Below, in pieces: positions 23,308-59,586 of a DNA stretch of 64,000 nucleotides. A program made the position numbers and the translations under genes. Source of the DNA: an uncultured Erysipelotrichaceae bacterium (GTDB lineage Bacteria > Bacillota_I > Bacilli_A > Erysipelotrichales > Erysipelotrichaceae); contig CAMCKH010000001.1 in assembly GCA_945875435.1 (NCBI GenBank), forward strand, positions 1 through 64,000, in the 5' to 3' direction. How positions within the stretch are numbered: position 1 is the stretch's first letter; every line of letters starts with the position of its first letter. The notes beneath the pieces were generated by a model. The model ran no database searches. It worked only from the letters and a program-made list of their open reading frames with translations, and was not told the DNA's origin.

Positions 23308-23594
23308 TGTTAAACATTAAACAAAAGAAGCAATTAAGATCAATAGCTAATAATTTAAAACCTTATGTAATAGTTGGTAAAGATGGTGTTAATGAAAATT
23401 TAATTGTAACTCTAAATGACTCTTTGGTTGCTCATGAACTTGTGAAGGTAAGTGTTTTAAAAAATTCATCTTTATCAATAAATGAAGTAGCAATTGAGCT
23501 TTCAAGATTAACAAATTCTGAAATTATACAAATAATAGGTAGAGTAGTGATTCTTTATAAACAAAGTAAAAGGAAAATTATTAAACTATGTTAA
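23307..23594 (+). CDS. yhbY: YhbY/YqeI CRM-domain RNA-binding protein
   Basis: 95 residues, one CRM domain: LRSIANNLKPYVIVGKDGVN, then the basic loop ALVAHELVKVSVLKN-like segment and the terminal QIIGRVVILYKQSKRK. The GxxG-like VGKDG loop binds RNA; these proteins associate with pre-50S particles. Its position between yqeH and the yqeK part is the standard one. The next gene starts inside its last codons. Confidence 0.92.
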   Translation: MLNIKQKKQLRSIANNLKPYVIVGKDGVNENLIVTLNDSLVAHELVKVSVLKNSSLSINEVAIELSRLTNSEIIQIIGRVVILYKQSKRKIIKLC

Positions 23595-24835
23595 ATACCA
23601 TTGAAGAGTATAATAATTTAGATTCAAAAACTAAAGCCGATATTTTAAGTTTTGATTATGAAAAATTAAATGATATTGCTAAAAACTGCTTATCTGATTT
23701 TAGATATAAACATAGCTTAGAAGTTGCGAAACTTTGTGAAGAAATTGCTATTGAAAATAACTATAATCCAGCTAAAGCTTACATTGCTGGGATTTTACAT
23801 GACATAACTAAAGAATGGGATGATTCAAAAACCATAAATTATTTAGAAAAGCATGACAGCACATTATTGAATAAAAATATTAAAATACTACATCAATACA
23901 CTTGTTACTATTATTTATTGGAAAATAGCGATTTAGATATAGAAATTTTAGATGCTATAAAATCTCATAGTGATGGAACTTGTGATACAACATTGGGAAA
24001 AATATTATATGTAGCTGATAAGTATGAAAAAACAAGAAAATACGAAACTGCTACAATTAGAGAAGTAGCTTTAAAAAATATTGACGAAGCATTTGAAATG
24101 GCTAAAAAAGATGTAGCTAACTTTTTTAAAAATAAAAAGAAAATTGAAAAAGTAGAAAACTACCAATTATTAGCTAAATATTATGATTATATTTTAGGAG
24201 ATTATGATTCGTTAAAAAAATATTGGTATTATGATTTTCAAAAAAATAGTAAAGGAAAATCAGTTTTAGAACTCGGAAGCGGTTCTGGAAGCTTTGCAGA
24301 AATATTGACAGATAGAGGTTATAAAGTTTTTGCGAGTGATATTTCTTTTGAAATGCTACAAGTTATTAAGGAAAAAAATATTGATCTTATTGATTTAAAA
24401 ATGATTGATATGAGAAATTTTGAATTGAATCAAATTTTTGACAATATTGTATGTATTTGCGACAGTATAAATTATCTAACTTTAGATGAAATCGATTCAA
24501 TGTTTAAATCTTGTTTTAAGCATTTAAAACAAAACGGTTTATTATTTTTTGATATTCACCACGAAGAAAGATTGGTAGAATTTAAGGATGAATATTTTGA
24601 AGAAGGAGATGTTTTTGATATACAATATCAGTGGTATATAAGTTCAAATTCTAATAAATTAAATGAAACATTCTTATTTTTCGATAAAGAAAAAACTTAT
24701 GTTGAAAAGCACACCCAGTACATACATAAACTAAAAGATATTTTAGATTTATTAGAAAAAAATGGATTTGATTATAGCTATGATATTGATTTTGTACCGT
24801 TTGAGAAAATATTAATAAAAGGAGTGAAAAAATGA
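23588..24835 (+). CDS. YqeK HD phosphohydrolase fused to YqeM methyltransferase
   Basis: 415 residues with two domains that are separate genes in Bacillus. Residues about 20-190 are a YqeK-type HD domain: RYKHSLEVAKLCEEIA, AGILHDITKEW and IKSHSDG, which hydrolyses Ap4A symmetrically in characterised homologues. Residues about 200-415 are a class I SAM methyltransferase like YqeM: YYDYILGD, then motif I VLELGSGSGSFAE, motif II VFASDISFEML and FDNIVCICDSINYL. No stop or frameshift separates them. In Bacillus the order is yqeI-nadD-yqeK-rsfS-yqeM; nadD and rsfS are missing here, and the two flanking domains are joined. It overlaps its neighbours by 7 and 4 bases. Confidence 0.85.
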   Translation: MLNTIEEYNNLDSKTKADILSFDYEKLNDIAKNCLSDFRYKHSLEVAKLCEEIAIENNYNPAKAYIAGILHDITKEWDDSKTINYLEKHDSTLLNKNIKILHQYTCYYYLLENSDLDIEILDAIKSHSDGTCDTTLGKILYVADKYEKTRKYETATIREVALKNIDEAFEMAKKDVANFFKNKKKIEKVENYQLLAKYYDYILGDYDSLKKYWYYDFQKNSKGKSVLELGSGSGSFAEILTDRGYKVFASDISFEMLQVIKEKNIDLIDLKMIDMRNFELNQIFDNIVCICDSINYLTLDEIDSMFKSCFKHLKQNGLLFFDIHHEERLVEFKDEYFEEGDVFDIQYQWYISSNSNKLNETFLFFDKEKTYVEKHTQYIHKLKDILDLLEKNGFDYSYDIDFVPFEKILIKGVKK

Positions 24836-25576: not shown

Positions 25577-26335
25577 TTGGAAGAGGTAAAAGGTTATATT
25601 CATTCTACTGAAAGTTTTGGTTCGGTAGATGGTCCGGGTATTAGATTTATAATTTTTATGCAAGGTTGTCGTATGAGATGTCAATTTTGTCATAATGTAG
25701 ATACTTGGAATATTCACGGAGGAAAAGAAGTAACTGCTGATGAAATCATCGAAAGAGCTTTAAAATATAAAGAATTTTGGGGTAAAAAAGGTGGCATTAC
25801 TGTATCTGGTGGAGAACCGTTGCTTCAAATTGATTTTTTAATTGAATTATTTAAAAAATGTAAACAACAAGGAATACACACAACTTTAGATAGTTGTGGA
25901 AAACCTTTTACTTATGAAGAACCATTTTTCAGTAAATTTGTTGAACTTCTTAATTATGTAGATTTAATTTTATTGGATATTAAACATATAGATAGCGAAA
26001 AACATAAAGAATTAACTGGCTGGCCTAATGAAAATATTATTGAATTAGCTAAATTTTTAAGCGATAAAGGTCAAAAGATTTGGGTAAGACATGTTCTAGT
26101 TCCTGAAAGAACAGATTATGATGAATATTTAATTAGATTAAGCGATTTTGTTGCGAGTCTTAAAAATGTTTTAAGGTTTGAAGTGCTTCCTTATCATAAA
26201 CTAGGAGTTTATAAGTGGAAAACTCTAGGCATCCCTTATAAACTAGAAGGCATAGATACACCTAGTCAAGAGAGGGTAGAAAATGCCAACAGAATCTTAA
26301 AAACTGCTAATTATACTAGATATTTAGATGAATAA
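25577..26335 (+). CDS. pflA: Pyruvate formate-lyase activating enzyme
   Basis: 252 residues. A radical SAM enzyme that installs the glycyl radical on pyruvate formate-lyase. The 4Fe-4S motif CRMRCQFCHN is at about 31-40, with SGGEPLLQ and DLILLDIKH further on. AGGAG precedes a TTG start. The gene stands alone with its own promoter and terminator; no pyruvate formate-lyase gene is in the window. It points to anaerobic mixed-acid fermentation, consistent with pta. Confidence 0.94.
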   Translation: MEEVKGYIHSTESFGSVDGPGIRFIIFMQGCRMRCQFCHNVDTWNIHGGKEVTADEIIERALKYKEFWGKKGGITVSGGEPLLQIDFLIELFKKCKQQGIHTTLDSCGKPFTYEEPFFSKFVELLNYVDLILLDIKHIDSEKHKELTGWPNENIIELAKFLSDKGQKIWVRHVLVPERTDYDEYLIRLSDFVASLKNVLRFEVLPYHKLGVYKWKTLGIPYKLEGIDTPSQERVENANRILKTANYTRYLDE

Positions 26336-26355
26336 CCAATTATATTGGTTTTTTA
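26334..26355 (+). terminator. Terminator after pflA
   Basis: AACCAAT (26334-26340) pairs with ATTGGTT (26344-26350) over TAT and is followed by TTTTA. Confidence 0.75.
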
Positions 26356-26397
26356 TTTTCTTTAAATATTGTATAATTATAACATTGTGGAGGCTAT

Positions 26398-29300
26398 ATG
26401 TTCGAATTTATAAAAGGGTATAAATATAAGAATAGTTCTATCGATCAATTAAATGAAGAAATAAAAAATAAAAAAGAAAGCATTCGTCTTTTGAATGCGG
26501 ATATTAAAAAAGCTAATCAAGAACTTAAAAAATTTAAAAACGATGTTGATGCTAATACTGTTAAAATAAAAACTGAGATCGAAAAGAGAAAGTCAGATTA
26601 TTATGCTGAAATAGAAGTATTAAATTCAGAAATAAATAAACTTAAAGAATTGATTGAAAAAGAAACTTTAAAAAATAAACAACTTATAGAAAAACAAGAT
26701 TTAACCTTAGAAAATATCAAAGATAATTTTGTTAAAATGCTAAATAAGGAAAATCAGTCTTTTGATAGTGAAAAAAATAGAATAATAGACTCATTTGATA
26801 ATTTAGAAAATGATTTAGATAATAAATATTTAGAAAAATTAAATAAAAAAGATGAGGAACTTAAAAATATCCAATCTGATAAAAATAAAGAAATAGATGA
26901 GCTTAGAAATGATTTGTTTATTTTTGATGAGGAATTAAATATCGCTTTAAAAGAAAATGAAAGCATAAAAAATATTCTTGATATCAAAGAAAAAGAGTTG
27001 GATTTAAAAATAAAACAATATAATGATGAATTAAATTTAAAAGAAAATAGCCTAAAAGAAATCAAACAAAACCAAATAAATCATCAAAATGAAATAATCG
27101 ATAATTTAGCTAAAGTAAGCTCTGATAAATTTGAAGAGTTAACTTTATTAAAAAAACAATTTGATGATCAATTAAATTTAAAGAAAATGGAAATTTTAAG
27201 ACTGACAGATGAAGAAATAGTTTTAAAAAATACCTTGAATGATTTAATTAAAAATAATAATTTGGAGCTTGATAGAATATATGATAATTACAATGCTAAT
27301 CAAGAATCTTTAAATAAAGATGAATATAATGTTAAACTCAAATTAGAAAATGAAAGAAATTTATTAAATTCATATAATTTGTTGCTCCAAGAAAATTATG
27401 ATAAATATCAAAATTTAATATTTAAACATAATGAAAATTTAAGTAATGTTACCAATAAATTAGAAAAAGAATTAAAAGATCATAAAGAAAAATTAAATTC
27501 TGAACTATTAGAACTTGCGAAACAACATGAAAATTCATTACTTTTAAAAACGGAAAATTACCAAAAATTAATTAAGGAAAAAAATGATGAAATAAGATCT
27601 ATATCTTTTCATTTAGATGATTTGAAGAAAACTTTGATAGAAGAGATTAAAAATAAAAAGAATGAAATTTCATATCTTGTAAATAATCAAAAAGTTAATT
27701 TTCAAAATTTAATAAAGAATAAAGAAATTGAATTAAGCAACATTAATGAAAAAATAAACAAACTTAATCTATCGTTTGTTGAAAATAAAGAAAAAATAGC
27801 TTTAAACCACCAAGAAAATATTGAAAAAATACATTTATCAAATCAAAATATTTTAAAAGATTATGGCGTACAACATAATGATTTTATTCGTGAAAAAAAT
27901 ACAATTTTAAAAGAAGTTGACAATCAGATATTTGTTATCGAGGGTAGAATTAAAGAATTAGAACTTCAAATTTCACAAACTATTGATAATCAACAAATTG
28001 AAAAAAATAAAATTGAAAATGAAATAAAATTAAACAACCAAAAATATCAAGAAAGACAAAATGAAGTTATTTTTGAAATTCAAAAATTAGAAAAAGAAAT
28101 TGAATCAGTAAAAATTAAGAATGAAAATAGCATTTTAAATTACCAACAAAAAATTGTTGAAATTGAAAATATTATTAACGAAACTAAAGAAAAACATCTT
28201 TTAAATTTAAATAAATTGGAAGAGGATAATAAACTTGAGGTAGAAAATTTAAAGTCAAATTTTGAAAATAATATTTTAAATTTAGAAAATCAACATTTAG
28301 CTAAAGTCGAAGAAGAAGAAAGGGTAAAAAATAATATTTTAAACGATATTTCTTTATTGAAAGAAAATCATATAAAAGATTTATCTAATTTAGAAAACCA
28401 ATTAACCTTTGAACTAGAAAATGAAAAAGAAATTTTCAAAAATCAACTTAATGAAATAGAAAAAGAAATTGGTGATTTAACAGAAAAACATAATAATTTA
28501 ATTGTTGAAAAGGAAAATTTAATTTTAAATATTCATAGAGATAATGAAAATGAAATAGAAAAATTAAAACATAAATACCAAAACGAATTAACACTTAAAA
28601 ATGAAAATATTAACAAAGCTAAAGAATTATTTACACAAGAATTAAATGAGCTTAATGACAAAAAAGATCTTTTAAATCAAAAATTGAAAGAAAAGTTAGA
28701 AATTCTTAATAACGAAACTTTAAAATTAAATGAAATTAAAGAAAAAGTGTTTTTAAAAGAAGAAAAATTAAGAATTGATGAAGAAAGTCAATTAAGTAAT
28801 CTTGAAGGTCAAATAATTGCTAAAAGTGATATTATAGATAAACTCAATAAACAATTTGATGACAGTAAAGATATTTTTAATCGCAAGATTAATGAATTAA
28901 ATATTAAATTAGAAAACATTAGAAAGGATAATGAGGTTGAAATATCTCTTAAAAATAATGAACTTCTTAATGAGTTTAATGATTTGAAAAATACTTTAAT
29001 TGTTAAGCAAGAAGTTATAATTAACGAGAAAAATAAACAATTAGAATCTTTTAATAAAGTTTTAAATGAATTAAATGATAGAATTTATCTTCAAAAACAA
29101 GATTTTGCTAAAGAATTAGAACAATTAAAAACTAAATACATCGAGTATAAACAAAAAGATGCGAGTGTTTTTGATTTAAAAATTAAAGATTTATTAGCCA
29201 GCAAAGATAGTTATACCGCTAAAAATAAATTGGAAGAACAAATCTATGTCGATACTATAAATAAAATCAAAGATAATCACTATAATTATTTGAGTAAATT

Positions 29301-32265
29301 AGAAAACGACTATCTTTTGTTTGTGCAGAATAATGAAATTGAAATTAGTAATTTAAAAGCTAATCACAATGAAAAAATTGCTATCTTAAATCAAGAAATC
29401 GAAAGCATTAACTTTGAAATTTTTAATGTTGATAAAGATATTGAAAATCAAAAAAATGAATTTAATAATTATTATAATACTTTATCTAATGAAGTTATTA
29501 CTACCATTAATGATAAATATAATAATAAAAAACAAATTTTAGAAAATGAACTTAACCAAAAAGAAAACCAAATAACTTTATTAACTCAAAAACATCAAGA
29601 TTATATCGAAAATGCCAAAAGTGTTTTAGATAATTTGAATGAAAAAATTCAAAATGCTTTAAGTTTTAAAAATGAAATTTTAAATAATTATGAAACAAAT
29701 AAAAATTCTGCTTTATTAGAACTTGATCAAGAATTTGAATTAAAAAATAAAAATTTCAATGAAGAATTTGAAGGTAAATTACAAAATTTAGAAAATACAA
29801 AATTAGAATTATTAAACCAAGAAAATGAACTATTTATTAAGCATAATCAAGATATTGAATTATTAAATTCTGAATATGAAGAATATAAAAATAAATTGGA
29901 TACTGATTTAGTTTTATATCAAAATAAGATAAATGATGAATTAAATGAACTTTTTGAAAATGAAAAATTAAATGAAATCAAAAAAGATAATGAAATTCAA
30001 AATTTAATTAATGAATTTGAAAATAAAGAAAAGCAGTTACTTAAAGAGTATAGTGATAAAAAAAGAGAACTTGAGTTTTCTAAAAATAATAAAATAGAAA
30101 TTTTAAATTTTGAATTAGATACTTTAAATAATAAAAAAGTAAACTTAAATGAAGAATTAAGATTAAAAAAAGAAATTCTTGAAGCTGAAATTATTAAAGC
30201 TGAAAATAGAAAAGTTGAATATATTAAAAAGATTGAAGATATTCAAAATAAACATAATTTAAAAATTAAAGAAGTTTCTGATGAATATGCTTTAATTATT
30301 GCTGATAAAGAAAAATATATTCTAGATCTTAACAATTCATATAATGATGATAAGATTTATTATGATAATGAAATATCACTGTTAACTAGTAATTTAGAGC
30401 ATAAAACTATTGAAAATACTAATTTAGAAAATGAATTAAAAAATAAATTAGAAACAATTAAAAATTCTTTAAATAATTCATACAATTTAAAATTGAATGA
30501 AAAAAATAAACAATTAAGTGATATTCTAATTGAAAAACAAAATCAATTAGAAATATTTGAAAATGAATTGTTAGAAAAGAAAAATAATTATTTAATTAAA
30601 TTTAATCAAAATAAAGAATATTTAGATAGTTTGAAAAATACGCTTTTAAACAATTATAATAATGAAATTAAGAAATTAGAATTAGAAAAAACAGAAATTT
30701 TAAATAAAATTGAATTAAATGAACAAAATTTTAAAGCTAAATTAATTTCTTTAGATACTTATTATAATAATAGATTTTTGAGCATTAAAAATGATGAAAA
30801 TATTAAGATTGAGTCTCTTAATAAAGATATTGAAAAGATTGAAAGTGATAACCAGCTTGTTTTATTAGATCTTAATAATGATATTTCTAAGTTAAATGAA
30901 GAAATAGATGAGTATAATGAAAAAATAAAATTCCAAGAAAATCAATATAATGATTACTATGATAATTTATTTAATGAAATTATTATTAATTCAAAATCAG
31001 AATTAGATCAAAAATATTCAGAATTGAATAAAATAGTGTCAAATATTAATAAAAATATTGATAATATAAATCATAGCATTAAAAATAATGCTGAAGATTA
31101 CCAAAATCTAAAAGCTAAATATAACGAAAAAATAGATTTGGAATTTAAAAAAGAAGCCTTTATTATTGAGGAATTTAATATTAATAAAAATAATTTCTTA
31201 AATCAAATAAAAGAAGATTTTATTATTTCTAATCAAAAAATTGATGATGAGTTTAATTTTAAAGTTAATGAAATTTTAAATAAACGTAATGAATTAGAAA
31301 ATGAATTTAATATTTATAAAGAAATTCAAAATAAAAATTTAGATGATTATAAAAATAAATTAATTTTAAACAAACAAGAATTAGAAAATCAATTAATTGA
31401 AATTAAGGATAAGGCTTCAAAAGATTTATTAGAGTTAACTAAACATAATGAAGATTTAATGAATAAATTCAATCTTGATCTAAATAACAAATTAAATGAA
31501 TATAGAAATAAAGAAAAACAACTTAAAGAAGATCTTTTAAGACAAATAAATATTTTGGATAAAACAAAAGTTGAAAAAATGAAACAACTAAATGATTTTA
31601 ATGATGATTTAGAAAAAGAAAAAGAAAAATTAATTAAAGAAATTAAGAATTTAGAAACTAGACTTTTGATTGTGAAAGAAGAGGCTAGAATAAGAAAAAA
31701 TGATTTTAAAAATCAAAGTAATCAATTAATAGCACATCACCACTCAAGAATGGAAAAAATTCAAACTTTAATTGAAAAAGAGAAAGATAATTTTAAAATT
31801 CATAAAGATAAAACAGAATTCGACAATCAATTAGTTGCTCTTAAAGAAAAGTTAGATACTCAATTTAATTTTGATAAGAATAGTATTTTAGAAGCTATTG
31901 ATAAAAGCAAGATTGAACAGGCTTATAAAGTAGCTGAAAAAAGAAATGAGGAACAAAAAATAATTGACGACTATAATAATAAGATGGAAAAAGAAACTTC
32001 TCAATATGATTTTAATATTGATCGTCTAAATGAAAGATTGAATAATATCTTAGCTGAAAATTTCTTTGAAGAAGAAAAGTTTAATGAAGAAAAAGAAAAA
32101 ATGCTTAATAATTTTCAAATTGAAAATGCCGAAAATATAGAAAAAATAGCAGCTCTTAAACAAGATATTGAAAATATTGTTGAAAATGTTAAAAACGATG
32201 AAGAAGAATTTTCAAAATTAATTGCTGAACTAGATGATGAATATAACAAAAATTATCAAGCATAA
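26398..32265 (+). CDS. Giant coiled-coil protein (1955 residues)
   Basis: A single uninterrupted reading frame. From about residue 15 to the C-terminus it is heptad-type sequence rich in Lys, Glu, Asn, Leu and Ile (for example LNEEIKNKKESIRLLNADI). Reading it through I find no proline, cysteine or tryptophan. There is no signal peptide, membrane helix, Walker motif or anchoring motif, so it is probably cytosolic and is not an SMC ATPase. The first residues MFEFIKGYKY and the last ones EFSKLIAELDDEYNKNYQA are the only less regular stretches. At about 0.15 nm per residue a continuous helix would be near 290 nm. GGAGG precedes the ATG and TATAAT lies at 26372-26377. I do not recognise a named family; a cytoskeletal or scaffold role is inference. 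Confidence 0.8.
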   Translation: MFEFIKGYKYKNSSIDQLNEEIKNKKESIRLLNADIKKANQELKKFKNDVDANTVKIKTEIEKRKSDYYAEIEVLNSEINKLKELIEKETLKNKQLIEKQDLTLENIKDNFVKMLNKENQSFDSEKNRIIDSFDNLENDLDNKYLEKLNKKDEELKNIQSDKNKEIDELRNDLFIFDEELNIALKENESIKNILDIKEKELDLKIKQYNDELNLKENSLKEIKQNQINHQNEIIDNLAKVSSDKFEELTLLKKQFDDQLNLKKMEILRLTDEEIVLKNTLNDLIKNNNLELDRIYDNYNANQESLNKDEYNVKLKLENERNLLNSYNLLLQENYDKYQNLIFKHNENLSNVTNKLEKELKDHKEKLNSELLELAKQHENSLLLKTENYQKLIKEKNDEIRSISFHLDDLKKTLIEEIKNKKNEISYLVNNQKVNFQNLIKNKEIELSNINEKINKLNLSFVENKEKIALNHQENIEKIHLSNQNILKDYGVQHNDFIREKNTILKEVDNQIFVIEGRIKELELQISQTIDNQQIEKNKIENEIKLNNQKYQERQNEVIFEIQKLEKEIESVKIKNENSILNYQQKIVEIENIINETKEKHLLNLNKLEEDNKLEVENLKSNFENNILNLENQHLAKVEEEERVKNNILNDISLLKENHIKDLSNLENQLTFELENEKEIFKNQLNEIEKEIGDLTEKHNNLIVEKENLILNIHRDNENEIEKLKHKYQNELTLKNENINKAKELFTQELNELNDKKDLLNQKLKEKLEILNNETLKLNEIKEKVFLKEEKLRIDEESQLSNLEGQIIAKSDIIDKLNKQFDDSKDIFNRKINELNIKLENIRKDNEVEISLKNNELLNEFNDLKNTLIVKQEVIINEKNKQLESFNKVLNELNDRIYLQKQDFAKELEQLKTKYIEYKQKDASVFDLKIKDLLASKDSYTAKNKLEEQIYVDTINKIKDNHYNYLSKLENDYLLFVQNNEIEISNLKANHNEKIAILNQEIESINFEIFNVDKDIENQKNEFNNYYNTLSNEVITTINDKYNNKKQILENELNQKENQITLLTQKHQDYIENAKSVLDNLNEKIQNALSFKNEILNNYETNKNSALLELDQEFELKNKNFNEEFEGKLQNLENTKLELLNQENELFIKHNQDIELLNSEYEEYKNKLDTDLVLYQNKINDELNELFENEKLNEIKKDNEIQNLINEFENKEKQLLKEYSDKKRELEFSKNNKIEILNFELDTLNNKKVNLNEELRLKKEILEAEIIKAENRKVEYIKKIEDIQNKHNLKIKEVSDEYALIIADKEKYILDLNNSYNDDKIYYDNEISLLTSNLEHKTIENTNLENELKNKLETIKNSLNNSYNLKLNEKNKQLSDILIEKQNQLEIFENELLEKKNNYLIKFNQNKEYLDSLKNTLLNNYNNEIKKLELEKTEILNKIELNEQNFKAKLISLDTYYNNRFLSIKNDENIKIESLNKDIEKIESDNQLVLLDLNNDISKLNEEIDEYNEKIKFQENQYNDYYDNLFNEIIINSKSELDQKYSELNKIVSNINKNIDNINHSIKNNAEDYQNLKAKYNEKIDLEFKKEAFIIEEFNINKNNFLNQIKEDFIISNQKIDDEFNFKVNEILNKRNELENEFNIYKEIQNKNLDDYKNKLILNKQELENQLIEIKDKASKDLLELTKHNEDLMNKFNLDLNNKLNEYRNKEKQLKEDLLRQINILDKTKVEKMKQLNDFNDDLEKEKEKLIKEIKNLETRLLIVKEEARIRKNDFKNQSNQLIAHHHSRMEKIQTLIEKEKDNFKIHKDKTEFDNQLVALKEKLDTQFNFDKNSILEAIDKSKIEQAYKVAEKRNEEQKIIDDYNNKMEKETSQYDFNIDRLNERLNNILAENFFEEEKFNEEKEKMLNNFQIENAENIEKIAALKQDIENIVENVKNDEEEFSKLIAELDDEYNKNYQA

Positions 32266-32329: not shown

Positions 32330-32719
32330 ATGAACAAATATGAAAATAGTGCTTTTTTCTGGCAAAAAATAGACAGTTTATATATATCTAGTGAATTTAA
32401 GTTAATCGCTAAAAAAGGAAATGAACACTCTAACTTTAAACACTTAAAATACCCTTTAGATTATGGAGTTTTGGTTATAGATGGAGATGAAAAAAATACT
32501 TTTAAAGGTTATTGCGGCAGTTTAAAAGATAATGGTGTAAATTCAATTGTTATAAGTGTTAATATTTTAAGTAAGACCATCGATGCTAGATTTTTGATTA
32601 ATGTTAATGAAAAAGAGGAAGAAGATTTAATGAGATTTTTGGATCAAACTGAATTTCAAAAATCTATTATCATTAGAAGAGATGATAAATTCCCTTATTG
32701 GCAAGATGATACATTTTAA
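32330..32719 (+). CDS. Small inorganic-pyrophosphatase-like protein
   Basis: 129 residues. The pattern FFWQKIDSLYISSEFKLIAK, then KYPLDYGVL and DGDEKNTFKGYCGSL, resembles the short Firmicutes proteins annotated as inorganic pyrophosphatase-like (consensus PLDYGYL...GDGIDVW.GS). The typical D-x-D region is modified, so hydrolase activity is uncertain. The C-terminus has FQKSIIIRRDDK, like the family's 'KGILIRR'. It is a single gene between the coiled-coil gene and the convergent mevalonate operon. The assignment is by pattern memory and is moderate. Confidence 0.5.
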   Translation: MNKYENSAFFWQKIDSLYISSEFKLIAKKGNEHSNFKHLKYPLDYGVLVIDGDEKNTFKGYCGSLKDNGVNSIVISVNILSKTIDARFLINVNEKEEEDLMRFLDQTEFQKSIIIRRDDKFPYWQDDTF

Positions 32720-39265: not shown

Positions 39266-40762
39266 ATGAGTGATAAAGATTTTTTAAGTCAGTTGGTTAG
39301 TGATGAAAAACCTGAGAGTTTTAAAGAAGAAGAAAGGATAAAAATATCAGAAACTAAAAAACCTTTTAATTTAAAGGTGTTTCTTGCTATATTTTTACCA
39401 CTAATTTCTGGTATAGCTTTATTATTATTTTTATTTTTAAGTCCTAAAATTAAAATGCTAGATTTTGTAGGTAAAAATAAAAATGAATTATTGAATTTCT
39501 TGCGACAACAAGAAATAGATTTTAATGGCGTTATAATTAATGAAGAATATAGTTTAGAATATGATAAGGATATTGTTATTTATCAAAGTGTTGTTTCAAA
39601 TAAAAAAATATCAAAGAAAGAAAAATTAAATTTTACTGTGAGTAAGGGTGCCGACCCTGATGAAAGCATTAATCTTCCTGATTTAAAAAGCATGAATAAA
39701 ACACAAATTAATAATTGGATTAGTGAAAATAAACTTTCGGGAACAAAAGTTAATATTGTATATGATGACAATGTTGCTGATGGTGAAATTATTAAGTATG
39801 AATTAAAAGGTGAAGAGAGCGAATTTAAACGAAATACACAACTAACAATCACAATTTCTAAAGGTAAAGCTCCTGCTGGGAAGGTTGTTGTTCCTGAATT
39901 TAAAGGGAAAAATGTTGATGATTATAGCGAAGAGCTTAAAAAGAAAAAATTAAATACCCAAACAGTTGGCGTTTATGATGATAAGATTGTTGAAAATCAA
40001 GTTGTTTCAATCAATGCTGAAGTAGGAAAGAGTGTTGATGAAGGAGCAACCATTATTATTAATTATTCAAAAGGTAAAGCTGTTATTGTTCCTGATTTTA
40101 CTAAAATGAGCAAGGAGGAATATAATAAAAAGAAAAATGAATTTAATATCATTGAAAACACCATCTATAGCGAAAGTAATAAATTTATTTTGAATCAAAG
40201 TGTTAATTCGGGAAGTAAAATTGGAGTTAGAGATTTAATAAGTTTAACTATAAATAGCGGAAAACCTAAAATTTCTGAATTTGCTGAAAATGGTTTGGTA
40301 GGAGTTAATATCCATGATGTTTATGATTGGATTAATAATGTTAATGCTAAATCAGATAATTATGATTTAGCAGCTGGTGAGTGGGGAAATTCTAGAATTT
40401 ATTCAAAAGACTATGAAAAAGATATGATAATTTCTTATTCTTGCCATATTTATGAAAGTGGTAAATCTGTCGATTGTCATAGACCTTTAGAAAAACATAC
40501 TAGAATAAGTGTGGTGGTATCTGCAGGTAAAATATATCCATTTGCCACTAAAGATAAAAATGGTATCGCAGTTGGTGTAGATGAATTTATGAATTTTTTA
40601 TCAACATCAAAAATTTACTTTACAACAGGAGAAGGATCTAAAATAGAAACTTCTGACATAAATGTTATTAAACACAATGATGAAGTCATTTACGAAAATG
40701 GTAGTTGGAAGATTGAAAATATTGAAATAAAACAAGAAGATATAATTCGTTTTATAAGATAA
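39266..40762 (+). CDS. Membrane-anchored PASTA-repeat protein without kinase
   Basis: 498 residues. A short cytosolic part (1-43), one membrane helix (about 44-65) and an extracellular part of about 430 residues. Four PASTA-type units are recognisable, each closing with a strand like FTVSKG, ITISKGK, INYSKGK and LTINSGK (about 66-130, 135-205, 207-273, 275-335). A fifth, longer unit ends in VVVSAGK near 440, with two cysteines (SCHIYESGKSVDC). PASTA domains bind muropeptides or peptidoglycan in PknB-type kinases and PBPs; no kinase domain is present here. It heads an operon with an FtsX/MacB-like permease and its ATPase, 13 bases upstream of the permease. AAGGAG precedes the ATG. Confidence 0.85.
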   Translation: MSDKDFLSQLVSDEKPESFKEEERIKISETKKPFNLKVFLAIFLPLISGIALLLFLFLSPKIKMLDFVGKNKNELLNFLRQQEIDFNGVIINEEYSLEYDKDIVIYQSVVSNKKISKKEKLNFTVSKGADPDESINLPDLKSMNKTQINNWISENKLSGTKVNIVYDDNVADGEIIKYELKGEESEFKRNTQLTITISKGKAPAGKVVVPEFKGKNVDDYSEELKKKKLNTQTVGVYDDKIVENQVVSINAEVGKSVDEGATIIINYSKGKAVIVPDFTKMSKEEYNKKKNEFNIIENTIYSESNKFILNQSVNSGSKIGVRDLISLTINSGKPKISEFAENGLVGVNIHDVYDWINNVNAKSDNYDLAAGEWGNSRIYSKDYEKDMIISYSCHIYESGKSVDCHRPLEKHTRISVVVSAGKIYPFATKDKNGIAVGVDEFMNFLSTSKIYFTTGEGSKIETSDINVIKHNDEVIYENGSWKIENIEIKQEDIIRFIR

Positions 40763-43671: not shown

Positions 43672-45018
43672 TCATTTCCCTTTAAATTCACGAATGCGTT
43701 GAGGAATACCCTTTAAAAATTGATTCATTTTTTGTTGCCATTCATTTTCAAGAGCTTTCCTTTCTTGAGAATCTAAATCGTCAATAGCCTTACTATTTAG
43801 ACCGATTTCGCTTAAAACTGGACTGACATTAGAGATTGTCTTTTTGTCAAAATAAATTTTACTTTCTTCCATCTGTAAATTAAGTGACGAACTTAACTCA
43901 ACTTGTTCCCAAGGGATTCTGACAAGTTCTGGTTTGCCGAATAATTTCTTCTTAAAGGTGTAGACAGCTTCCTCTGTAAAGATAAGATTTAAACTTAGAG
44001 TTCCTTCAAACATGGCAAAAATATGTTCTTCATGCAACTCCTTGTGGTTTGGATAATGATACCAAAATACTCTAGCCGAATAAAGACTTGCATACTCCTT
44101 TGGTAAAAGAATTGTATCTTGTTCTTGCAAGTTTTTTTCTGCAATCATCCATTCAAGATTATTCTCAATAAGGGGAGTCCAAAAAACGTAATCTGCAAGT
44201 TCGCTCAGATACTGATAGCGTTCATAATCGATAAAAGTTTGGTCTATAGAAGTTCCTTCTATGGAAGCAAGTAAATCATTTGAAGGCTCAGTAAGTCCTG
44301 GGGTCTCATCATTATAATATACACGATATTGCCTTGGTTTTAACTCTTTAACAATTTCTTCAGGTAAAAAGTTTTCTAACAAGGTTGTCAAGTCGGTTAA
44401 CTCATGATTTGCCCAAAAAGTACCATAAGAAAAGACATTCGTCGGTGCAATACAAAAAGAATAAACATCTATCACATATTCCCCAACGCTTGTAATGGTT
44501 TCTGAGCTAGGAACATACTGAAGTAATTTTCCCATTACACAAGATGCTAGGTATTGTTCCCAAGTCTGATAACTATTTTTGATACGCTCTGTTTGCTTGG
44601 TAAACAGTTCCTCAAATTCTTCTTTAGTAATCAAGCGAGCAGCATACGATTTCGTCAAGACATCAATTATACGGCAGTCGTCAAAGCCTTTGATTAGTTG
44701 AGAACCTGTTAATGAATTTAAAGAAAGGTAAAAGTCTTTTACATCAGGAGTGCCTATTCCATCAATAAATGAAGAAACATCTTCTAAAGCATGATAATGA
44801 CCATCTTCTAGTTTAACAATTTCTTCTTTTAAACTTGAATAATCTGTAATTCCATAGTTTGTTTCTAACATGGTTCGCAACAGGCCTCTGGCCATTATAT
44901 TAACACCTGGCATGACGACACTCATTAGTTCTTTTTCAATAAATTGTCTATTGACTGAATTGGCAAAAACTGAACTGTATCTGTATGGACTGCACAATAA
45001 AACGTATTCTGATTGCAT
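43672..45018 (-). CDS. DUF1266-like protein with PH-like C-terminus
   Basis: 448 residues, no signal peptide or membrane helix. Residues about 110-170 (KGFDDCRIIDVLTKSY, ITKEEFEELF, SYQTWEQYLASCVMGKLLQ) fit the DUF1266 pattern of Trp/Asp-Arg helix, acidic helix and SWE-type segment. The C-terminal part (about 325-390) has AMFEGTLSLNLIFTEEAVY and LFGKPELVRIPWEQV, like bacterial PH domains. The function is unknown. It has an excellent promoter and AAGGAG before the ATG. Codon use (CTG, GCC, GGC, GTC) is unlike the neighbours. With the IS remnant and flanking repeats this supports acquisition, perhaps from a streptococcus-like donor. Confidence 0.5.
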   Translation of the reverse strand: MQSEYVLLCSPYRYSSVFANSVNRQFIEKELMSVVMPGVNIMARGLLRTMLETNYGITDYSSLKEEIVKLEDGHYHALEDVSSFIDGIGTPDVKDFYLSLNSLTGSQLIKGFDDCRIIDVLTKSYAARLITKEEFEELFTKQTERIKNSYQTWEQYLASCVMGKLLQYVPSSETITSVGEYVIDVYSFCIAPTNVFSYGTFWANHELTDLTTLLENFLPEEIVKELKPRQYRVYYNDETPGLTEPSNDLLASIEGTSIDQTFIDYERYQYLSELADYVFWTPLIENNLEWMIAEKNLQEQDTILLPKEYASLYSARVFWYHYPNHKELHEEHIFAMFEGTLSLNLIFTEEAVYTFKKKLFGKPELVRIPWEQVELSSSLNLQMEESKIYFDKKTISNVSPVLSEIGLNSKAIDDLDSQERKALENEWQQKMNQFLKGIPQRIREFKGK

Positions 45019-59268: not shown

Positions 59269-59586
59269 ATGGAAAAGTTAAATTTAAACGCATATGATGT
59301 TTACAACAAAGAGTTTAATATTGATGTAAATGGATTTTCTTGTAATGAAGTAAATTCTTTTTTAGATTTAGTGATTGCTGATTACCAAATTATGGAAGAG
59401 AATATTAAAAAATTACAAGCAGAAATTGAAAATTTAAATAACTTATTAACAAATAAAGATGAAGAAATATTATCTTTAAAATCAAAATCAAAATTTAATG
59501 ATTTTACTAATACTACTCAATACTCATCAATTGATTTATTAAAAAGAGTTAGTAGATTAGAAGAAGAAGTATTTAAAAAAGACTAA
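59269..59586 (+). CDS. gpsB: Cell division protein GpsB
   Basis: 105 residues. An N-terminal DivIVA-like membrane-binding domain (LNAYDVYNKEFNIDVNGFSCNEVNSFLDLVIADY) is followed by a coiled coil and a short C-terminal helix. GpsB couples PBP1 localisation to elongation and division; here it lies divergent from recU-pbp1A, whose product it binds in other species. AAGGAG precedes the ATG. TAAAAT at 59240-59245 with an extended TG is the likely -10. The stop codon overlaps the 5' end of rnpB. Confidence 0.93.
   Translation: MEKLNLNAYDVYNKEFNIDVNGFSCNEVNSFLDLVIADYQIMEENIKKLQAEIENLNNLLTNKDEEILSLKSKSKFNDFTNTTQYSSIDLLKRVSRLEEEVFKKD

Follow-up and report, generated by a model that had tools for sequence, protein, structure and literature searches.

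A giant, proline-free and predominantly helical rod-like protein predicted in a reduced Erysipelotrichaceae genome

A single gene of an Erysipelotrichaceae bacterium encodes a protein of 1955 residues that is best read as a lineage-specific, cytoplasmic-type and almost wholly α-helical rod, for which coil scoring and structure models predict a near-continuous helix. The probability that this protein is a structural scaffold, filament or ruler is put at about 0.5, and we infer that its most plausible role is that of a cytoskeletal filament, spacer or ruler. The gene lies in a window of 64,000 nucleotides (the whole stretch of DNA that was analysed), and was first picked out by a reading of the sequence only, made without database searches, which had suggested a cytoskeletal filament or spacer.

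The gene and its host genome

The gene occupies positions 26398–32265 of the window on the forward strand. Reading and translating the frame and computing its composition confirmed the coordinates, strand and length given by the sequence-only reading, with 1955 codons, beginning with ATG, and a stop. A residue count likewise found no proline, cysteine or tryptophan in the 1955 residues, as had been claimed, and six glycines; the mean proline content of neighboring genes (2.35%) would be equivalent to about 46 prolines over this length, versus the zero seen. The frame is not accidental, as a stop-free frame of such length has a chance probability of about 10^-103 at the given DNA composition and the remaining five frames over the gene contain 88–456 stops each. 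Nor is its length an obvious assembly artefact, a concern raised earlier, since an internal DNA repeat search found no exact 20-base repeats within the gene, which sits in a contig of 265,897 bases.

A ribosome-binding site, GGAGG, read directly from the sequence at 26389–26393 (forward strand), lies 4 bases 5′ of the ATG. A possible −10 hexamer, TATAAT, was seen by eye at 26372–26377 (forward strand); it is weak, was missed by a consensus scan, and has no good −35 element at standard spacing. Also seen by eye was a possible terminator of the upstream gene at 26334–26359 (forward strand; AACCAAT-TAT-ATTGGTT, then a T-rich tail), which has only two G-C pairs and was not called by a scan requiring three.

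The giant gene is native to its host. Its GC content is 18.9%, versus 26.4% for the window, and this low value is fully accounted for by a composition rich in Lys, Asn, Glu, Leu and Ile: the GC content predicted from its amino acids and the codon usage of 32 neighboring genes is 19.8%. Codon choice in the gene and its neighbors correlates at r = 0.97. Host codon usage, GC content as expected and the GGAGG site together argue for a native, expressed gene. Elsewhere in the window, a DUF1266 gene (43672–45018, reverse strand) had the highest GC3 among the window genes checked (27%, with 10–19% in the others) and the lowest codon-usage correlation, and was possibly acquired.

The host belongs to the Erysipelotrichaceae (Bacillota), a gut-dwelling family, and its ParE matches come mostly from that family at 61–69% identity. 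Its genome of 1.17 Mb (20 contigs, 96% complete, about 26% GC) is reduced and very AT-rich, and it is the sole member of its genus among the genomes compared. The window encodes PBP1A, RecU and GpsB, so the host very likely builds a cell wall. The GpsB gene (59269–59586, forward strand) encodes the only PF05103 protein in the host genome, with a diverged motif (NGFSCNEVN versus RGYDxxEVD). A gene at 39266–40762 (forward strand) encodes a 498-residue protein that carries four PASTA repeats but lacks kinase and transpeptidase domains, and adjoins genes for an FtsX-like permease and an ABC ATPase. MreB appears to be absent from the host genome: the one match to the MreB profile (E 1.6e-21, in a 607-residue frame, C1:222760–223788) is more likely a DnaK-type protein, judging from its size and score. 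Among 35 other family genomes sampled, some of them incomplete, 16 gave no MreB match at E 1e-40.

Helical period, coil continuity and ends of the protein

Hydrophobic residues recur along the protein with a period of 3.60–3.61, or about 18/5, at a spectral power of about 33, whereas none of 300 shuffles exceeded 11.5; in windows of 100 residues, the peak lies at 3.60 along almost the whole chain. The coil had been described as heptad-type, a description that does not fit this period or the hydrophobic autocorrelation, whose peaks, at 11, 18, 25, 36, 47 and 54, do not follow multiples of 7. Heptads are expected to give a period of 3.50 and hendecads one of 3.67; the observed value equals a mix of the two, with slightly more hendecads. 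It is near the 3.63 of an undistorted helix (PMC9858780), so a bundle of such helices should be almost straight. The two arms of the host SMC peak at 3.44 and 3.56, compared with 3.60 here. One helix face carries Leu, Ile, Phe, Tyr and His and the other Asn, Asp, Ser and Glu, while Ala makes up 2.1% of the protein and is positioned off the core; this bulky core may favor more than two chains per bundle. Asn, a poor helix former, accounts for 15.8% of the residues, so parts of the protein could be loosely structured.

Coil scoring with a re-implementation of COILS (window 28, MTIDK matrix) gave P >0.5 for 85% of residues; as controls, two overlapping SMC pieces gave 39–43% and four large globular proteins 0–9%. 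The coiled-coil prediction of the sequence-only reading was borne out over most of the protein but not in its full-length continuity, with six coil-weak gaps at about residues 237–280, 469–496, 921–974, 1297–1320, 1586–1640 and 1778–1839. In two AlphaFold models built from the single sequence, helix covers almost the whole chain at low confidence (mean pLDDT 53–54), with short non-helical breaks, also of low confidence, near 99–103, 301–307, 935–938, 1188–1192, 1336–1341, 1802–1804 and 1833–1835. Single-sequence structure models tend to render sequences of this kind as helix. Given the COILS gaps and the low-confidence breaks, the helix without breaks that had been envisaged is unlikely; the protein is probably not one unbroken helix, and the length of 290 nm calculated for it is only an upper limit.

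The N-terminal cap (residues 1–19, MFEFIKGYKYKNSSIDQLN; 26398–26454, forward strand), delimited by composition and structure model, holds the sole glycine before residue 490, and its residues 1–13 are non-helical in the AlphaFold model. The rod (residues 20–1744; 26455–31629, forward strand) is predicted from periodicity, COILS and repeat analysis to be helical, with a period of about 3.6 and degenerate internal repeats. By repeat and coil analysis, the C-terminal tail (residues 1745–1955; 31630–32262, forward strand) is least similar to the repeats; the coil phase breaks at about 1760–1800, and residues 1801–1955 have a net charge of −17.

The reported lack of membrane, wall or nucleotide-binding motifs was upheld, with a maximal 19-residue Kyte-Doolittle mean of 0.49 and neither a Walker A nor an LPXTG motif. 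Long coiled coils are common among bacterial surface proteins, and this one could be an extracellular or surface fiber that uses an unusual export route. Such an explanation is highly improbable, however, as hydropathy and motif searches found no signal-type stretch, membrane segment or wall-anchor motif such as LPXTG, in agreement with the earlier judgment that this is not a surface protein, and no secretion genes adjoin the gene.

Internal duplication

Self-alignment indicates that the rod is enlarged through internal duplication, a new observation here. Copy A (residues 739–1217; 28612–30048) and copy B (residues 1230–1712; 30085–31533), both on the forward strand, align at 27.5% identity over 510 columns with a score of 438. 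Shuffles of 18-residue blocks scored 271 ± 20 (maximum 338 in 300) and shuffles within chemical classes, which keep the hydrophobic pattern, scored 348 ± 21 (maximum 423 in 300), so that the true score was unmatched in 300 shuffles of either kind; the corresponding z-values of 8.4 and 4.2 are somewhat flattering, because the segment pair was picked after many offsets had been viewed.

Offset scans gave peaks near 350 and 500 residues for the whole protein and near 150, 370, 500 and 650 for residues 1–1235, which leave out copy B, with no clear peak for residues 1225–1955. Of the four peaks for residues 1–1235, the one at 150–160 counts least as independent evidence, its windows lying close together on the chain. 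An older repeat unit of about 150–180 residues is probable in the first two thirds of the protein. Eleven presumed repeat units aligned poorly, and the repeat claim rests on the offset statistics.

Search for relatives

Conserved presence in a clade, which the sequence-only reading had named as support, was not found: no homologue of the full-length protein was detected in 60 relatives or in 268 family genomes, nor of its first 202 residues in 273 family genomes. Searches by peptide pattern in GTDB genome contigs and viral contigs, and by tblastn in phages and plasmids, found no relative. No profile in Pfam or NCBIfam matched, and PDB gave only weak, partial coil matches. Because coiled coils diverge fast and the range of the peptide-pattern scans is limited to close relatives, a more distant homologue may have escaped detection.

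Several candidates were rejected. A second match in the host genome (E 1e-4, C1:190487) was taken as chance, the gene there reading by eye as polynucleotide phosphorylase. Seven weak matches (G292, G224, G126, G094, G008, G172 and G200) were partial, at 22–35% identity in frames of 179–566 residues, and were not counted as homologues; a 348-residue low-proline match (L076) was a masked stretch read as X. ATP synthase subunit b, matched in PDB over 132 residues (E 0.002), was taken as partial coil similarity.

Relatives keep the upstream genes from YqeH to the nucleosidase, and the gene that follows differs, being short in the family and longer and unrelated in the sister family; the syntenic place holds no counterpart of the giant gene. 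The sister-family protein after the nucleosidase gene, of about 765 residues, contains many prolines and glycines, reads by eye as a U32-type peptidase and is not a homologue. With no homologue found, neither selection nor a gene context kept among relatives speaks for a structural role of the giant gene product. The neighbors of the gene (pyruvate formate-lyase activase, mevalonate pathway and methylthioadenosine nucleosidase genes) give no hint of morphogenesis.

Two other observations concern this region. Upstream, 23588–24835 (forward strand) encodes a 415-residue fusion of a YqeK-type HD domain and a methyltransferase; in this place relatives have a gene mostly of 336–393 residues and one of about 230 residues, each similar to the fusion, and usually hold between them a gene of about 115 residues, possibly RsfS. 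Both the fusion and the apparent loss of that intervening gene may be peculiar to the host genome. Downstream of the giant gene, 32330–32719 (forward strand) encodes a 129-residue protein that occurs at another place in 248 of 268 family genomes; it has no Pfam or NCBIfam match, and recalls inorganic pyrophosphatase, to judge by eye from YPLDYGVL.

That no relative was found and that the genus is a singleton would also suit a weakly constrained, fast-growing orphan, in which in-frame duplications in a very AT-rich, reduced genome expanded a small coil gene and length has little specific function. The low GC content, wholly explained by composition, and the degeneracy of the internal repeats point the same way. 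Yet the frame is intact across 5.9 kb, the hydrophobic stripe and the absence of proline are kept over the full length, and copies at about 27% identity still keep the pattern, suggesting long maintenance; on balance, we consider this account rather doubtful.

Comparison with known systems

HMW2 of Mycoplasma pneumoniae is an 1818-residue coiled coil that acts as a length ruler, and lengthening or shortening it alters the attachment organelle (PMC8191905). The present protein shares its plan, that of a giant cytoplasmic-type coil without a catalytic or membrane domain, and the same order of rod length, and is likened to it by plan only. Whereas HMW2 has 11 predicted coil domains over 1257 residues (PMC8191905), here the coil score passes 0.5 in 85% of 1955 residues, and the host of HMW2 is a wall-less mycoplasma with an attachment organelle rather than an Erysipelotrichaceae bacterium with PBP1A and GpsB. 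The statement that no known family fits overlooked HMW2, which is alike in kind.

Given how fast coiled coils diverge, the protein could be a homologue of a known giant coil (HMW2, an SMC-like arm or an EzrA-type protein) that has drifted past detection, and HMW2 is of equal size class and plan (PMC8191905). This is very unlikely, since neither Pfam nor NCBIfam gives a match, SMC is a separate gene, a host with PBP1A is not a wall-less mycoplasma, and the site of the giant gene is not conserved among relatives. SMC, Rad50 and MukB arms are the longest bacterial coiled coils in a survey of 22 proteomes, among whose bacteria no continuous coil was predicted to exceed 400 residues (PMC1322226). 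Their ATPase heads are absent here by profiles and Walker A search, and the period is 3.60 rather than the 3.44–3.56 of the host SMC arms. As the sequence-only reading held, the protein is not an SMC: the host has a separate 976-residue SMC, and the giant is not among the PF02463 matches.

FilP and Scy of Streptomyces, also a Gram-positive host, are likewise domain-free rods that mix heptads and hendecads, and Scy begins right before its RGYD motif (PMC9858780). Their core is of Ala, however, whereas that of the giant is bulky, and the longest of them, Scy (>1000 residues), is shorter than the giant. The protein might instead belong with DivIVA, GpsB, FilP and Scy as a division scaffold or as a tether fixed to the membrane or a cell pole, its N-terminus being a diverged DivIVA-like head. 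KGY at residues 6–8, just ahead of the coil and with the sole Gly of the first 489 residues, faintly recalls the DivIVA-like RGYD; the mixed repeats of FilP and Scy, with the start of Scy by RGYD (PMC9858780), and the single PF05103 protein (GpsB) left in the host genome are also consistent with this. The pattern GY[DN]xx[QE]V[DN] (PMC9858780) is absent, though, the nearest stretch (GYKYKNSSID) exceeding it by two residues and lacking the acidic cap; PF05103 matches neither the protein nor its N-terminus; and, although an 11-residue component is present, the Ala-rich hendecad core of FilP and Scy is not, with Ala at 2.1% and off the core. A lone PF05103 protein is, moreover, common in the family and implies no replacement. 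Such a tether is distinctly unlikely, and membership of the giant in the DivIVA/Scy or SMC groups is not supported by motif and profile searches. The idea that the giant substitutes for a lost DivIVA or MreB is unsupported as well, many relatives also having one PF05103 protein or no MreB match.

Rod-domain proteins are defined as having >80 coiled-coil residues without a known functional domain, and include filament formers that serve as precedent (PMC2680258). The giant has such a rod, as do crescentin and other intermediate-filament-like proteins (PMC2680258), but is far longer, proline-free and internally duplicated, with filament formation a candidate property. Domain-free bacterial rods are thus already known; the size, near-straight bulky-core period and growth by duplication are features of a new variant.

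Proposed role and significance

In the preferred reading, that of a scaffold, filament or ruler, a stripe of bulky Leu, Ile, Phe and Tyr would hold chains together side by side, building a rod-like bundle that is almost straight, is flexibly jointed where the coil is weak and reaches about 290 nm at most. Attachment could occur through its two ends, the short N-terminal segment that is not helical and the 210 C-terminal residues that stand apart from the rest, and the rod may set the length or spacing of some cell component, as HMW2 does in Mycoplasma, its own length having been gained by repeated in-frame duplication. A near alternative to an HMW2-like ruler is a filament such as crescentin or FilP forms. 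It is tempting, if still doubtful, to see here a previously undescribed class of cytoskeletal rod or ruler in bacteria: an almost straight bundle with a bulky core and an 18/5 period, grown by serial in-frame duplication and possibly setting a cell dimension in a lineage without MreB.

Internal duplication of an off-heptad helix would offer a route to a very large, domain-free coil in a shrinking genome. If the giant spans a distance in the cell, that length would be readable from the gene and alterable by removing or adding duplicated units, which, if true, would provide a simple test of bacterial length measurement outside the mycoplasmas.
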